Notes under the pieces: model-generated | The model's database searches: none | What the model saw: only the letters and a program-made list of their open reading frames with translations | What the model was told of the DNA's origin: nothing | Assembly (NCBI RefSeq): GCF_003382365.1 | Contig: NZ_QTSU01000002.1 | Location: 124,001-188,000, forward strand | Reading direction: 5' to 3' | Source: Lysobacter silvisoli | GTDB taxonomy: Bacteria > Pseudomonadota > Gammaproteobacteria > Xanthomonadales > Xanthomonadaceae | Length of the DNA: 64,000 nt | Made by a program: the position numbers and the translations under genes | In this document: one piece after another, positions 3,724-16,759 of the stretch | How the letters are laid out: each line of letters begins with the position of its first letter | Numbering within the stretch: the first letter of the stretch is position 1

Positions 3724-5190
3724 TCAAAGCTCGCCCAGCCCCTGCGCGCAACCGCCCTCGCCCACCTGCAGCAAACGCAGGGTGTTGGTGGCGCCGTGCT
3801 GTTCCATGGTGTCGCCGCTGGTGAAGATCACCCGCTCCTCGATCGCCAGCTTGCCGGCGTCGAACAACTGCTTGACCGCGCTGCGTGCGGCGTCGCGCGA
3901 GGCCAGGCCACGGCTGTCGAACTCGATCGGGTACACGTCGCGCATCAACGCCATGCGCCGGCGCGCGCCGTCGTGGCGCGAGAAGGCGTAGATCGGCGCG
4001 TTGGAACGGAACCGCGACAGGAAGCGCGCGGTGCCGCCGGACTCGGTCATGGCGACGATGGCGCGCACGCCGATGTGCTCGGACAGGAACATGGCCGCCA
4101 TGGCGATGGCCTGGTCGGCGCGCTCCAGGTTGCGCGGCGCGGCCTCGAAATCGGTGTCGTGGTCGAACTGGCGCTCGGCGCCCAGGCAGATGCGCGCCAT
4201 CGCCTCCACCGCCTTGATCGGATAGCGGCCGGCGGCGGATTCCTGCGACAGCATCACCGCGTCGGTGCCGTCGATGACCGCGTTGGCCACGTCCAGCACC
4301 TCGGCGCGGGTGGGGATGGGGCTGTCGACCATCGACTGCAGCATCTGCGTGGCGGTGATGACCACGCGGTTGCGCGCCAGCGACTCGCGGATGATCTTCT
4401 TCTGCAGGCCGGGAAGTTCGGCGTCGCCGATCTCCACGCCCAGGTCGCCGCGCGCGACCATGACCACGTCGCTGGCCTCCACGATCTCGGCCAGGTTCTC
4501 GATCGCCTCGGCGCGCTCGATCTTCGACACCAGGGCCGCGTCGCTGCCGGCGGCGCGGGCGATGCGGCGCGCCTCGTTCATGTCCTCGGCATTGCGGCAG
4601 AACGAGACGGCGATGAAGTCCACGCCAATCTCGGCGGCCACGCCGATCAGTTCCTTGTCGCGCTCGGTCAGCGCGCCCAGCGACAGGCCGCCGCCCTGCT
4701 TGTTCAGGCCCTTGCGGTCCGACAGCGCGCCGTCGTTGAGCACGGTGGTGACGATGCGCTGGCCCTCGACCGCGGTCACCCGCAGCTGCAGCAGGCCATC
4801 GTCGAGCAGCAGCACGTCGTCGGTGCGCACGTCGTCGGGCAGGCCCAGGTAGCTCACCCCGACCTCGCGCAGGTTGCCCGGCGGCGCGTCGGCGCTGGCG
4901 ACCAGGTCGAAGCGGTCGCCGGCCTTGAGCAGCACCCGGCCTTCGGCGAAGCGTTCGATGCGGATCTTGGGGCCGGGCAGGTCGGCCAGGATGCCGACTT
5001 CCACGCCTACCCGCTGCGCGGCCTCGCGCACCGCAGCGGCGCGCGCGACCTGCGAGGAAGGATCGCCGTGCGAGAAATTCAGGCGAACCACGTCGACGCC
5101 GGCGGCGAACAAGGCGTCGAGCACGCCCGGCGGATCGGTGGCCGGGCCCAGGGTGGCGAGGATCTTGGTACGGCGCGGGCTGTTGGACAT
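3724..5190 (-). CDS. pyk: Pyruvate kinase
   Basis: This enzyme transfers phosphate from phosphoenolpyruvate to ADP, the last step of glycolysis, as a cytosolic tetramer. At 488 residues it has the normal bacterial length. The protein opens with RRTKILATLGPATDPPGVLD and has NFSHGD for the nucleotide and metal site near residue 38. The family signature is around 240-265, with MVARGDLGVEIG carrying the Mg/K-binding Glu and Asp, and is followed by a TATQMLQSM segment. The C-terminal regulatory domain from about 350 ends with EHGATNTLRL. The ATG at 5190 fits the family N-terminus. It is transcribed in the same direction as pgk upstream and the aldolase downstream. Confidence 0.97.
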   Translation of the reverse strand: MSNSPRRTKILATLGPATDPPGVLDALFAAGVDVVRLNFSHGDPSSQVARAAAVREAAQRVGVEVGILADLPGPKIRIERFAEGRVLLKAGDRFDLVASADAPPGNLREVGVSYLGLPDDVRTDDVLLLDDGLLQLRVTAVEGQRIVTTVLNDGALSDRKGLNKQGGGLSLGALTERDKELIGVAAEIGVDFIAVSFCRNAEDMNEARRIARAAGSDAALVSKIERAEAIENLAEIVEASDVVMVARGDLGVEIGDAELPGLQKKIIRESLARNRVVITATQMLQSMVDSPIPTRAEVLDVANAVIDGTDAVMLSQESAAGRYPIKAVEAMARICLGAERQFDHDTDFEAAPRNLERADQAIAMAAMFLSEHIGVRAIVAMTESGGTARFLSRFRSNAPIYAFSRHDGARRRMALMRDVYPIEFDSRGLASRDAARSAVKQLFDAGKLAIEERVIFTSGDTMEQHGATNTLRLLQVGEGGCAQGLGEL

Positions 5191-6196: not shown

Positions 6197-6344
6197 GGCG
6201 GGCTCCGTGGGCTAGCGGTCGGGCGACCGCAGCCGGACGCTACGCCCGGACCCCGCCGCAAACCATGACCCGCTTCACAGCCGGCGGCGCCGCGCCCGCG
6301 AATTGCGCGCGGGCGCACATCCCGATGCCGATGCGGAGTCGGGC

Positions 6345-12432: not shown

Positions 12433-12524
12433 CGCTCCCCACCCCTGTCCTTAGTCGCAGGCACGTTAACACCAAGCGCGGCGCCGTGAAGACCGCTGCG
12501 ATGGATTTGCGATTCTGCGGCGAC

Positions 12525-12572
12525 TCACCACATATCGTGTTGACGGATCAGGGCACCCCTAATATGTTGTGT
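12525..12572. promoter_or_regulatory. Tandem NrdR boxes upstream of nrdA
   Basis: Two 16-bp sites resemble the NrdR consensus acaCwATATawGtgt-type palindrome. They are TCACCACATATCGTGT (12525-12540) and CCCTAATATGTTGTGT (12557-12572). Their equivalent positions are 32 bp apart, about three helical turns, which is the known arrangement for the tetrameric, ATP/dATP-sensing repressor NrdR. They overlap the -35 and -10 elements of the promoter that I propose for nrdAB. Confidence 0.75.
12540..12568 (+). promoter_or_regulatory. Putative sigma70 promoter of nrdAB
   Basis: A -35 element TTGACG (12540-12545) is followed after 17 bp by TATGTT (12563-12568). Transcription would start near 12575, just at the P1 stem of the riboswitch. 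The element is embedded in the NrdR boxes, which fits repression by occlusion. Confidence 0.6.
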
Positions 12573-12574
12573 CC

Positions 12575-12830
12575 GTCGGTGCCGATCGCGAGATCGGCTT
12601 AAAAGGGAAGCCGGTGCGGAGCCGCCTCTAGAGAGGGTCTCCAAGGCCGGCGCTGCCCCGCAGCGGTATGGGAAACGAACGTGGTCTATGCACTGGGCGC
12701 CCGGCGCCTGGGAAGCGGCCACCAGTAGGCGAATCCGGGGCGAGCGCAGAGCGGTGAGGCGGCCATGGGCCTCCCACCGCTCTCCACTCGCTCCGGGCGA
12801 TGGTCCCGAGCCCGAAGACCTGCCGACAGC
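12575..12830 (+). ncRNA. Cobalamin (vitamin B12) riboswitch in the nrdA leader
   Basis: The leader contains the conserved pieces of an adenosylcobalamin aptamer in order. P1 is closed by GTCGGT (12575-12580) with GCCGAC (12822-12827). Then come TTAAAAGGGAAGCCGGTGCGG (about 12599-12619), CTGCCCCGCAGCGGTATGGG (about 12653-12672), CACTGGGCGC and GCCTGGGAAG, CCAGTAGGCGAA, and the B12 box AGCCCGAAGACCTGCC (12809-12824), which matches the family consensus. It precedes nrdA by about 255 bases. In other bacteria such a switch turns off the B12-independent reductase when cobalamin allows use of the class II enzyme. Confidence 0.93.
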
Positions 12831-12852
12831 CGCGCGTCGCACATCGCGCGGT

Positions 12853-12887
12853 ACCGGCTAGGGAGTCTTCGGGGGAAGACGGCCGGT
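12853..12887 (+). promoter_or_regulatory. Hairpin downstream of the aptamer, possible expression platform
   Basis: ACCGGC (12853-12858) pairs with GCCGGT (12882-12887), and inside it GTCTTC (12865-12870) pairs with GAAGAC (12875-12880). No U-tract follows, so this is not a simple intrinsic terminator. A further 200 bases of GC-rich leader, including a second hairpin (GGCCTTC/GAAGGCC near 13032-13049), lead to the nrdA start. The sequence suggests control by folding or Rho rather than by a canonical terminator. Confidence 0.45.
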
Positions 12888-13084
12888 GTCGATGCCGTCG
12901 CGGTCCGCCGCGGCGGTTCGCGGTCCGTCTCGGCCTGCGCGACACCCCGTCTCCATCCTTACCGACTCCGCGCCCGCGGGGGCGCAGCCGCAACGCCGGA
13001 GCCCCCGGCCTTGCGAGCGTGCCCGCGCGTCGGCCTTCGAGGGGAAGGCCGGCGACCCGTGCGTCCCTGCCTACGGAGTCCACC

Positions 13085-15577
13085 ATGAGCACCCTGACCC
13101 CCGCACCCGACGCGGCCGCCGCCCTCGTCTCCACACCCGACGCGGCCCCCGTCCCCGTCGCGCGCGCGCCCGAGCGCGCCGCCGAAGCCGCGCCCGGCTT
13201 CGCCCTGACCCCGCCGGCCGCCAACCTGACCATGAGCGTGACCAAGCGCAGCGGGCGCCGCGAACCGGTCGACCTCAACAAGATCGTGCGCGCGGTGACG
13301 CGCAGCGCCGAAGGCCTGTACTCGGTGGACCCGATGCGCGTGGCCACGCGCACCATCTCCGGCCTGTACGACGGCGCGACCACGCGCGAGCTGGACGAAC
13401 TGTCGATCCGCACCGCCGCCCTGCTCACCGCCGAGGAACCCGAGTACGGCCGCCTGGCCGCGCGCCTGCTCAGCGGCGTGATCGAGAAGGAAGTGGCCGG
13501 GCTGGAAATCCACGCCTTTTCGCAATCGGTGGTGCGCGGCCATGAGCTGGGCCTGATCAACGAACGCCTGCTCGCCTTCGTGCAGGCCAACGCACGCAAG
13601 CTCAACGACGCCATCGACCGCAGCCTGGACGCGCGCTTCGACTACTTCGGCCTGCGCACCCTGTACGACCGTTACCTGCTGCGCCACCCCACCGCGCGCA
13701 CCGTGATCGAAACCCCGCAGCAGTTCTTCCTGCGCATCGCCTGCGCGCTGAGCGAAGACGTGGGCGACGCGCTGGCGCTGTACCGGCGCATGGCCCAGCT
13801 GGACTACGTGCCCTCCTCGCCCACCCTGTTCAACGCCGGCACCACCCACGAGCAGCTGTCCAGTTGCTTCCTGCTCGACTCGCCCGAAGATTCGCTGGAG
13901 TCGATCTACAAGCGCTACATGGACGTGGCCAAGCTCAGCAAGTTCAGCGGTGGCATCGGCCTGAGCTACACCCGCATCCGCTCGCGCGGCTCGCTGATCC
14001 GCTCCACCAACGGCCTGTCCAACGGCATCGTGCCCTGGCTGAAGACGCTCGACGCCTCGGTGGCCGCGGTCAACCAGGGCGGCAAGCGCAAGGGCGCGGC
14101 CTGCGTCTACCTGGAGCCCTGGCACGCCGACGTCGAGGAGTTCCTGGAACTGCGCGACAACACCGGCGACGAGGCGCGCCGCACCCACAACCTCAACCTG
14201 GCCAACTGGATCCCCGACGAATTCATGCGCCGGGTCGAGGCCGACGGCGAGTGGTCGCTGTTCGATCCGCACAAGGTGCCGCAGCTGACCGACCTGTGGG
14301 GCCCGGCGTTCGAGCAGGCCTACCACGCCGCCGAAGCCGCCGGCCTGGCGGTCAAGCAGGTCAAGGCGCGCGAGCTCTACGGCCGAATGATGCGCACCCT
14401 GGCGCAGACCGGCAACGGCTGGATGAACTTCAAGGACAAGTCCAACCGCGCCTGCAACCAGACCCTGCGCGAAGGCAACGTGGTGCACCTGTCCAACCTG
14501 TGCACCGAGATCCTGGAGGTCACCTCGCAGGAGGAGACCGCGGTGTGCAACCTGGGCTCGATCAACCTCTCGCACCACGTCGAGCTGTTCGAGGACGGCC
14601 AGGGCGCGTTCGATTTCGACAAGCTCGCCGAAACCGTGCGCCTGGCCGTGCGCCAGCTCGACCGCGTCATCGACCTCAACTTCTACCCGATCGAGACCGC
14701 GCGCCGCGCCAATCTGAAGTGGCGGCCGGTGGGCCTGGGCACCATGGGCCTGCAGGACGTGTTCTTCAAGCTGCGCCTGCCCTTCGACTCGGACGCGGCG
14801 CGCAAGCTGTCGCAGGAAATCGCCGAGGCGATCTACTTCCATGCGCTGTGCGCGTCCAACGAACTGGCGCTGGAGCACGGCCGCCACCCCGGCTTCGAGG
14901 ACACCCGCGCCAGCCTGGGCGAGCTGCAGTTCCAGGCCTGGGGCGTCACCCCGTCGCAGCCCGAGCGTTGGGACGCGCTGCGCGCGCGCATCGCCGAGCA
15001 CGGCCTGCGCAACTCGCTGCTGATCGCGATCGCGCCCACCGCCACCATCGCCTCGATCTCCGGCTGCTACGAGTGCATCGAGCCGCAGGTGTCCAACCTG
15101 TTCAAGCGCGAGACCCTGTCCGGCGACTTCCTGGTGGTCAACCGCTACCTGGTCGAGGAGCTGAAGAAGCTGGGCCTGTGGACGGCGGAGATGCGCGACC
15201 GGATCAAGATGGCCGAGGGTTCGATCCAGTCGGTGCAGGAAATCCCCGAGTCGCTGCGGCAGATCTACCGCACCGCCTGGGAACTGCCGATGCGTTCGCT
15301 GATCGACATGGCCGCCGACCGCGGCGCCTACATCGACCAGAGCCAGTCGCTGAACCTGTTCATCGAGAGCCCCAACATCGGCCAGCTCAGCTCCATGTAC
15401 ATGTACGCCTGGAAAAAGGGCCTGAAGACCACCTACTACCTGCGCTCGCGCCCGGCCACCAAGATCGCCAAGAGCACGGTCAGCGCGCCGGCCGCGGCGG
15501 CCCAGCCGGTGTACACGGCGGACGAGGCGATCGCGTGTTCGCTGGAGAACCCCGAGTCCTGCGAAGCCTGCCAGTAA
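13085..15577 (+). CDS. nrdA: Ribonucleoside-diphosphate reductase class Ia, alpha subunit
   Basis: This is the catalytic large subunit that reduces NDPs to dNDPs together with NrdB. The 830-residue product has a low-complexity Ala/Pro N-terminus of about 45 residues. An ATP-cone allosteric domain (SGRREPVDLNKIVRAV...) covers about 55-140, followed by the ten-stranded catalytic barrel. Visible catalytic residues are the paired cysteines in EQLSSCFLL and TAVCNLGSIN, and the thiyl-radical site NLCTEI (Cys and Glu). The C-terminus carries the thioredoxin-exchange CEAC. I start at ATG 13085, which has GGAG upstream and ends the structured leader. A cobalamin riboswitch and NrdR sites precede it; nrdB follows after a repeat-containing gap of 165 bp. 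Confidence 0.97.
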   Translation: MSTLTPAPDAAAALVSTPDAAPVPVARAPERAAEAAPGFALTPPAANLTMSVTKRSGRREPVDLNKIVRAVTRSAEGLYSVDPMRVATRTISGLYDGATTRELDELSIRTAALLTAEEPEYGRLAARLLSGVIEKEVAGLEIHAFSQSVVRGHELGLINERLLAFVQANARKLNDAIDRSLDARFDYFGLRTLYDRYLLRHPTARTVIETPQQFFLRIACALSEDVGDALALYRRMAQLDYVPSSPTLFNAGTTHEQLSSCFLLDSPEDSLESIYKRYMDVAKLSKFSGGIGLSYTRIRSRGSLIRSTNGLSNGIVPWLKTLDASVAAVNQGGKRKGAACVYLEPWHADVEEFLELRDNTGDEARRTHNLNLANWIPDEFMRRVEADGEWSLFDPHKVPQLTDLWGPAFEQAYHAAEAAGLAVKQVKARELYGRMMRTLAQTGNGWMNFKDKSNRACNQTLREGNVVHLSNLCTEILEVTSQEETAVCNLGSINLSHHVELFEDGQGAFDFDKLAETVRLAVRQLDRVIDLNFYPIETARRANLKWRPVGLGTMGLQDVFFKLRLPFDSDAARKLSQEIAEAIYFHALCASNELALEHGRHPGFEDTRASLGELQFQAWGVTPSQPERWDALRARIAEHGLRNSLLIAIAPTATIASISGCYECIEPQVSNLFKRETLSGDFLVVNRYLVEELKKLGLWTAEMRDRIKMAEGSIQSVQEIPESLRQIYRTAWELPMRSLIDMAADRGAYIDQSQSLNLFIESPNIGQLSSMYMYAWKKGLKTTYYLRSRPATKIAKSTVSAPAAAAQPVYTADEAIACSLENPESCEACQ

Positions 15578-15720: not shown

Positions 15721-15742
15721 GCATCAGCATCCAAGGAACCCC

Positions 15743-16759
15743 ATGTCCATCGCCACCTCCCGCCTCCTCGATCCCGGCTTCGATCTCACCCTGCGCCCCA
15801 TGCGCTACGCGCAGTTCTACGAGATGTACCGCGACGCCATCCGCAACACCTGGACCGTGGAGGAAGTGGATTTCTCCCAGGACGTCAACGACCTCAAGCA
15901 TAAGTTCGGCCCGGCCGAGCGCCACCTGGTCGAGCGCCTGGTCGCGTTCTTCGCCACCGGCGACAGCATCGTGGCCAACAACCTGGTGCTGAACCTGTAC
16001 CAGCACATCAACGCGCCCGAGGCGCGCATGTACCTGTCGCGGCAGTTGTACGAAGAAGCGCTGCACGTGCAGTTCTACCTGACCCTGCTCGACACCTACC
16101 TGCCCGACCCGAACGAGCGCGCCAAGGCCTTCGCCGCGATCGAGAACATCCCCTCGATCCGGGCCAAGGCCGAGTTCTGCTTTCGCTGGATCGACTCGAT
16201 CCAGGGGCTCAAGCGGGTGGAGACGCGCGAGCAGCGGCGCCAGTTCCTGCTCAACCTGATCTGCTTCGCCGGCTGCATCGAGGGCCTGTTCTTCTTCGCC
16301 GCCTTCGCCTACGTCTACTACCTGCGCTCGCGCGGCCTGCTCAACGGCCTGGCCTCGGGCACCAACTGGGTGTTCCGCGACGAGAGCGGGCACATGGGCT
16401 TCGCCTTCGAGGTGATCCGCACCGCGCGCGAGGAGGAACCGGATCTGTTCGACAACGACCTGCGCGCGCAGGTGCTGCGCATGTTCGAGGAGGCAGTGGA
16501 CTGCGAGTACCAGTTCGCCCAGGACGTGCTGTCCGGCGGCGTGGTCGGCCTGTCGCTGAAGGACATGCGCCAGTACCTGGAGTACTGCGCCGACCAGCGT
16601 CTGGTCCAGCTGGGCATGACCCGCCACTTCGGCGCCAGCAACCCCTTCGCCTTCATGGATCTGCAGGACGTGCAGGAAGTGACCAACTTCTTCGAGCGCC
16701 GCGTTTCGGCCTATCAGGTCGGCGTGCAGGGCGAGGTCGCCTTCGACGAAGCGTTTTGA
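15743..16759 (+). CDS. nrdB: Ribonucleoside-diphosphate reductase class Ia, beta subunit
   Basis: This 338-residue di-iron protein generates the tyrosyl radical for NrdA. In the stretch YEEALHVQFY the Glu and His metal ligands are followed, four residues after His, by a Tyr in the place of E. coli Tyr122. That supports class Ia rather than a Tyr-less class Ic protein. Further ligands are in the later ESGHMGFAFE segment (Glu, His) and EGLFFFAAFAY. The start ATG at 15743 has AAGGAA six bases upstream; longer in-frame extensions run into repeat sequence and are rejected. It is cotranscribed with nrdA and so subject to the same riboswitch/NrdR control, unless the intergenic repeats interfere. Confidence 0.96.
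   Translation: MSIATSRLLDPGFDLTLRPMRYAQFYEMYRDAIRNTWTVEEVDFSQDVNDLKHKFGPAERHLVERLVAFFATGDSIVANNLVLNLYQHINAPEARMYLSRQLYEEALHVQFYLTLLDTYLPDPNERAKAFAAIENIPSIRAKAEFCFRWIDSIQGLKRVETREQRRQFLLNLICFAGCIEGLFFFAAFAYVYYLRSRGLLNGLASGTNWVFRDESGHMGFAFEVIRTAREEEPDLFDNDLRAQVLRMFEEAVDCEYQFAQDVLSGGVVGLSLKDMRQYLEYCADQRLVQLGMTRHFGASNPFAFMDLQDVQEVTNFFERRVSAYQVGVQGEVAFDEAF

Follow-up and report, generated by a model that had tools for sequence, protein, structure and literature searches.

Two predicted NrdR boxes and a cobalamin riboswitch in one leader suggest a two-level off-switch of class Ia nrdAB in Lysobacter silvisoli

The regulator NrdR responds to the deoxynucleotide/ATP state, operons under NrdR are recognised by two boxes lying about three helical turns apart and overlapping the promoter, and nrdABS of Streptomyces coelicolor is under NrdR control. 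The same class Ia operon is under a B12 riboswitch (Borovok et al. 2006, cited in PMC4991794), and an NrdR box together with a cobalamin riboswitch was described in 2013 for nrdAB of Propionibacterium (Cutibacterium) acnes (PMC3848588). A comparative study indicated that isozymes alternative to B12-dependent enzymes come under cobalamin riboswitches (PMC3766115), and corrinoid riboswitches such as those of P. megaterium metE and E. coli btuB rely on kissing of the loops L5 and L13 (PMC10653944). In P. aeruginosa, B12 was reported to lower nrd expression slightly, in a way that did not depend on a riboswitch (PMC5962746). All articles cited in this text are drawn on as excerpts. Among the literature matches listed, in which subscription journals are thinly covered, no paper was found on NrdR plus B12-riboswitch control of nrdAB in Lysobacterales.

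Analysis of the window, the whole 64-kb stretch of DNA studied here, indicated that NrdR and a cobalamin riboswitch very probably act from one leader as a two-level off-switch of the B12-independent class Ia operon nrdAB. The features on which this reading is built are the following.

12525 to 12540, + strand: predicted NrdR box 1, TCACCACATATCGTGT, touching the -35 element; found with a weighted consensus, with similar pairs in related loci
12540 to 12568, + strand: sigma-70-like promoter TTGACG-17-TATGTT, found by promoter scan and covered by both NrdR boxes
12557 to 12572, + strand: predicted NrdR box 2, CCCTAATATGTTGTGT, overlapping the -10 element, exactly 32 bp after box 1
12574 to 12841, + strand: cobalamin riboswitch aptamer as transcribed, from the Rfam match and a predicted transcription start
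12656 to 12660, + strand: aptamer loop L5, CCCCG, the aptamer side of the kissing loop
12809 to 12824, + strand: B12 box AGCCCGAAGACCTGCC, read from the sequence and common to related loci
13085 to 15577, + strand: nrdA, class Ia ribonucleotide reductase alpha subunit (TIGR02506, 724.6 bits, cut-off 341)
15737 to 16759, + strand: nrdB, beta subunit with Tyr-radical motif (best match NF005550, 265.5 bits, under the cut-off of 309)

The genes had been read as class Ia with a Tyr-radical NrdB, and this was borne out by the TIGR02506 match of NrdA and by the motif YEEALHVQFY of NrdB, in which ExxH is followed at +4 by Tyr, a pattern that we take to be the Tyr-radical (class Ia) motif; the family match of NrdB itself is below its cut-off. 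A class II enzyme had been predicted elsewhere in the genome (4.54 Mb, 99.99% complete), and a B12-dependent NrdJ was located at G000:C2:582900-584810 (TIGR02504, 583 bits, cut-off 400; G and L numbers are our labels for genomes and loci), so the B12-independent isozyme under putative B12 control has its B12-dependent counterpart in the same genome. NrdR is also encoded (TIGR00244, 195.6 bits). The genome carries four cobalamin riboswitches in all, the other three preceding two TonB-dependent receptors and a CobN-type chelatase frame.

The NrdJ of this genome is split into a 717-aa NrdJ and an ORF of about 254 aa (L010:2048-5943; G000:C2, about 581.0-584.9 kb), the latter matching the C-terminal part of a B12-dependent RNR model at a sub-cut-off 45.6 bits, and a Lys/Ala-rich repeat protein frame lies between the two. 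The nrdJ gene seemingly has its own leader of about 300 nt, on the minus strand upstream of position 5886 of L010. A single strong NrdR-like box, ACACTACATCTTGTGG, sits some 300 nt before the start and, paired with a weak second box, scores 1.38; no Rfam match at the gathering threshold was found in this leader. An in-frame insert of about 1.1 kb is present near profile position ~281 in the NrdJ genes of G006, G023, G060, G079, G088, G135, G170, G216 and G220; inteins have been reported in NrdJ (PMC4465626).

The sequence-only reading had placed two NrdR boxes exactly 32 bp apart over the -35/-10 pair, and the scan agreed: the NrdR-like pair at 12525 and 12557 is the best in the window, scoring 1.54 of a maximum of 2.0 on a weighted, presumed NrdR consensus. 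The next distinct pair scored 1.21, and five Markov control sequences of 64 kb peaked at 1.17-1.42. The promoter inside the pair is the sole promoter-like site in 12440-13120 (shuffle mean 0.0), and its TTGAC is invariant in 21/21 aligned related promoters. The predicted boxes, 32 bp apart over a promoter, thus have the arrangement expected of an NrdR operon.

The cobalamin aptamer claimed for the leader was recovered by a check set beforehand, the covariance model RF00174, which matched 12560-12841 on the + strand over its full length (1-189) with 87.3 bits and an E-value of 3.6e-20 (Rfam cmscan), against the curated gathering cut-off of 31.5 bits that defines membership of the family. It is the sole Rfam match at the gathering threshold across the whole window. 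The aptamer had also been said to begin where transcription begins, which fits the aptamer proper and fails for the start of the Rfam span: judging from the position of the -10 element and from conservation in the aligned loci, the predicted transcription start is at about 12574-12576, where the P1 5' strand GTCGGT lies, and the first ~14 bases of the span would therefore be promoter DNA. A variable stem of the aptamer (12744-12797 in the window) carries long lineage-specific hairpin inserts in L011, L016, L018, L027 and L036 (alignment A5); those of L016, L027 and L036 are GTAGGAGCGGC-type palindromes, with GCGGGAGCGGC in L027, and in our view resemble REP elements.

Downstream of the aptamer the leader contains three hairpins and the ribosome-binding site.

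12865 to 12880, + strand: P13/L13 hairpin GTCTTC-GGGG-GAAGAC, with a loop complementary to L5 and a covarying stem
12970 to 12985, + strand: second hairpin GCGCCC-GCGG-GGGCGC, whose loop GCGGGG is a 6-nt perfect complement of L5 CCCCGC; an alternative L13 candidate
13028 to 13054, + strand: third hairpin CGTCGGCCTTC-GAGG-GGAAGGCCGGCG, ending 30 nt before the start codon, with a loop partly complementary to L5
13075 to 13078, + strand: Shine-Dalgarno GGAG of nrdA

A hairpin of the type C-GNGG-G tetraloop occurs in 60/66 leaders (Markov mean 1.5, maximum 5, 50 runs), and the P13 stem covaries, column pair 65-73 for example being changed on both sides in 9/25 sequences. L5 is CCCCGC in all 66 Lysobacterales leaders, so within this order it is invariant and covariation of the kissing loops can be seen only between clades. 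There, both loops differ together: each of 11 leaders, from as many other families, has ACGCG or TCGCG as L5 and a CGCG-type hairpin loop. The mean L5 x L13 duplex energy for the Lysobacterales L5 was -8.9 with own-clade and -4.2 with other-clade partners, and for the other-family clade -7.3 within and -3.9 between clades. The L13 finder returned a loop bearing GGGG or CGGG in 51/66 leaders; GGAGGG, GAAGGG or GAGGG loops occur in some of the remaining 15, and for some a different hairpin had been picked. The L5-L13 complementarity typical of kissing-loop cobalamin riboswitches is therefore present, and by loop complementarity the first hairpin after the aptamer is assigned as P13/L13. The other gammaproteobacterial nrdA leaders (L092, L094-L103) have a distinct post-aptamer hairpin with a loop of the CTCGCGTCAAGG / TTCGCGTAACAGG type.

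A protein- or sRNA-binding reading of the C-GNGG-G hairpins (RsmA-like, or for a C-rich-loop sRNA such as sX13; PMC3771888) was considered and dropped because L5 and the other-family leaders show that the first hairpin is L13. Four further C-GNGG-G hairpins on the + strand of the window were taken as chance occurrences, those at 5170, 58000 and 58206 lying inside likely minus-strand genes and that at 6304 between the 3' ends of two likely genes.

The two-level off-switch would then work as follows. NrdR bound to the two boxes 32 bp apart, which cover -35 and -10, would block initiation, and RNA that is nevertheless transcribed would start at P1 of the aptamer; binding of adenosylcobalamin would favour kissing of L5 (CCCCG) with L13 of the adjacent downstream hairpin, this kissing would lower nrdAB expression, possibly through translation control or Rho/RNase-mediated RNA loss, and the cell would depend on the B12-dependent class II NrdJ encoded elsewhere. 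We infer both the binding of NrdR and the off-with-B12 direction. The two signals had been described as AND-type logic in one leader; the logic would be that of two repressing inputs (NOR), both of which must be absent for expression.

The long GC-rich leader had further been taken to imply an unusual mode of expression, a claim that is only partly right because the first leader hairpin is an ordinary P13/L13 kissing-loop element. Some 200 nt separate L13 from the Shine-Dalgarno. The terminator scan revealed no terminator-like site in 12440-13120, which is in keeping with Rho-dependent termination or RNA decay, a possibility that we hold tentatively, in which kissing would expose the conserved C-rich sequence that follows the GCGACACC arm; such a C-rich, G-poor stretch (CACCCCGTCTCCATCCTTACC in the window) has similar counterparts in the alignments, although the argument is drawn from the appearance of the sequence.

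Action at translation, with the pyrimidine-rich GACTCCG (12964-12970) pairing with the Shine-Dalgarno region CGGAGTC (13074-13080) and P13 formation deciding the pairing, seems rather unlikely. The seven-base complementarity is present in the window, and across 25 species the energies of the species' own anti-SD x SD and P13 x B12-box combinations were slightly better than permuted ones (41/2000 and 26/2000 permutations as good, respectively, in permutations that ignore the relatedness of the species), but the proposed competitor, P13 5' flank x anti-SD, gave no signal (806/2000), the thermodynamic contrast was flat or wrong in sign, and in L011 the anti-SD x SD pairing is weak (-4.8 kcal/mol). 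The control pairing, P13 flank x SD, likewise gave no signal (1580/2000 permutations as good). A three-way competition of P13 flank, anti-SD and SD was rejected, its first leg being the unsupported pairing just given. An antisequestor switch between the B12 box and the Shine-Dalgarno was also modelled and found unsupported, the Shine-Dalgarno being no harder to open with the B12 box blocked as a stand-in for the ligand-bound state: across 62 leaders the opening energy changed by a mean of -0.6 kcal/mol, with 2 leaders above +1 and 18 below -1.

At least two L5-complementary hairpins were found in 38/66 leaders (Markov mean 11.4, maximum 19, 60 runs), with a loose key that includes GAGGG, which offers only GGG. 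One such hairpin lies within 75 nt of the nrdA start in 30/66 leaders (mean 16.6, maximum 27), and in 25 of the 30 its end is 26-38 nt from the start codon, the distance in the window being 30 nt. One aptamer might accordingly serve several competing kissing partners, cobalamin-bound L5 choosing among the hairpins so that kissing near the Shine-Dalgarno would repress translation from afar, with the upstream hairpins tuning or buffering the response; we regard this as improbable. The distant L13 and the extra L5-complementary hairpins permit a clean reporter test of long-range kissing-loop control.

Comparison of the leader across relatives showed that the arrangement is conserved and tracks the presence of NrdJ. 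The B12 box lies upstream of nrdA in 65/80 related loci, of which 79 are usable, L089, whose contig starts with nrdA, being left out of the riboswitch counts. Rfam searches at the gathering threshold covered ten loci: nine with the box (L012, L020, L026, L031, L034, L051, L064, L073 and L084) scored 104-123 bits as cobalamin riboswitches, the box-less L058 gave no cobalamin riboswitch, and the remaining 56 box-bearing loci were called from the B12 box alone. The best NrdR-like pair scored at least 1.33 in 78/80 loci, box-less ones included, the exceptions being L062 (1.25) and L089 (0.92); this search covered spacings of 30-33 in 300-700 nt per locus and had no shuffle control for such short regions, and in a few loci (e.g. 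L028, L075) the top-scoring pair may not be the true one. L018 and L089 are Lysobacterales-type nrdA loci in assemblies named Tolypothrix and Nitrospira, probably through contamination or mixed bins.

NrdJ was above cut-off in 61/65 box-bearing genomes versus 1/14 evaluable box-less ones (L048). Among the four box-bearing exceptions, NrdJ is spread over two frames in L059 and partial in L050; NrdJ was not found in L018 (mixed Tolypothrix assembly) or L088 (metagenome bin). No probability is attached to this co-occurrence because the genomes are related rather than independent and most losses fall within Stenotrophomonas.

The wider sample comprised 143 Gammaproteobacteria, with RF00174 in 97 and a class Ia-type NrdA above cut-off in 83. 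When coordinates were compared by eye, the riboswitch lay directly upstream of nrdA on the same strand in 13/143 genomes of 12 labelled families (G000 and G092 (f1), G081, G115, G135, G144, G151, G161, G170, G178, G207, G208 and G218). NrdJ exceeds its cut-off in 12 of the 13; in G115 it is present as two pieces on contigs. Among the other 70 class Ia genomes, 67 were examined, G156, G091 and G180 being dropped from the NrdJ search with nrdA at contig edges; NrdJ exceeded its cut-off in 12 of these 67, and G206 has it as two pieces. The initial search (E <= 1e-100) misses genes split by inserts; three of the riboswitch-adjacent genomes were rechecked, as were 20 of the 67 others that had no class II match and at least two candidates, which raised the latter count from 9 to 12 (G088, G216 and G220 added). 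Nine genomes reaching the NrdJ cut-off only through their own NrdA (400-409 bits) were not counted. Thirteen genomes thus combine NrdJ, in two pieces in one of them, with a class Ia NrdA whose gene has no adjacent riboswitch, so NrdJ does not require the riboswitch. An NrdR-like pair 31-32 bp apart was present in 12/12 fetched leaders (of the 13) with scores of 1.42-1.67, five of which (L093, L095, L096, L099 and L103) are 1.42, equal to the best Markov control. These data suggest that joint control of class Ia nrdAB by NrdR and a B12 riboswitch serves widely as a choice device among those Gammaproteobacteria which also keep the class II NrdJ.

Among the 15 loci named Stenotrophomonas, 12 lack the B12 box and L051, L060 and L071 keep it. 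All 12 box-less loci retain an NrdR-like pair (scores 1.50-1.54), and TTGACG is kept in 8/8 of the box-less leaders inspected. The P1 5' strand GTCGGT and the GCGAC-CC arm are each kept in 11/12 and a P13-type hairpin in 6/12; in the other two box-less loci, L053 and L058, all three are absent. Seven Stenotrophomonas loci searched against Rfam with E up to 5 gave no cobalamin match. The simplest reading is that the aptamer was lost from inside a pre-existing leader. All box-less Stenotrophomonas genomes except that of L048 (11/12) carry another RNR-like frame with partial NrdJ-model matches, the best piece at 122-157 bits being well under cut-off; in the one genome tested, G018 (via L043; L104:344-2731, G018:C16), this frame is a second class I alpha subunit (NF006665, 1457 bits, cut-off 1057). 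Similar frames were seen in G015-G017, G019-G021, G026, G028, G029 and G031, and none in the genome of L048, which retained NrdJ. Many Stenotrophomonas, without NrdJ and without the aptamer but with the NrdR pair, therefore constitute a natural experiment.

That nrdA and its NrdR pair persist in the 12 box-less loci is also what would be expected if the Lysobacter aptamer were a non-functional relic and NrdR alone mattered; the high-scoring aptamer, the invariant L5, the covarying P13 stem and the co-occurrence with NrdJ in 12 families make this very improbable.

Control of nrdAB by NrdR and a B12 riboswitch is already known in P. acnes, and the Lysobacter case is not the first of its kind. 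According to the excerpts of PMC3848588, the nrdAB promoter of P. acnes likewise lies under an NrdR box, the leader contains an annotated cobalamin riboswitch and NrdJ is encoded elsewhere; the species belongs to another phylum, a single NrdR box lies over nrdAB whereas Lysobacter has a pair at 32 bp, and much transcription apparently terminates before the first gene, whereas no terminator-like site was found in the Lysobacter leader. The excerpted PMC4991794 shows a similar likeness for S. coelicolor nrdABS, a class Ia operon with a B12 riboswitch and a class II NrdJ partner, the difference being the actinomycete host. In comparison with the kissing-loop corrinoid riboswitches of PMC10653944, as excerpted, the L5 consensus there is UCCCG and L5 in Lysobacter is CCCCG, both being complementary to L13 of the next hairpin, while in Lysobacter L13 is positioned about 200 nt before the Shine-Dalgarno and is followed by further L5-complementary hairpins downstream.
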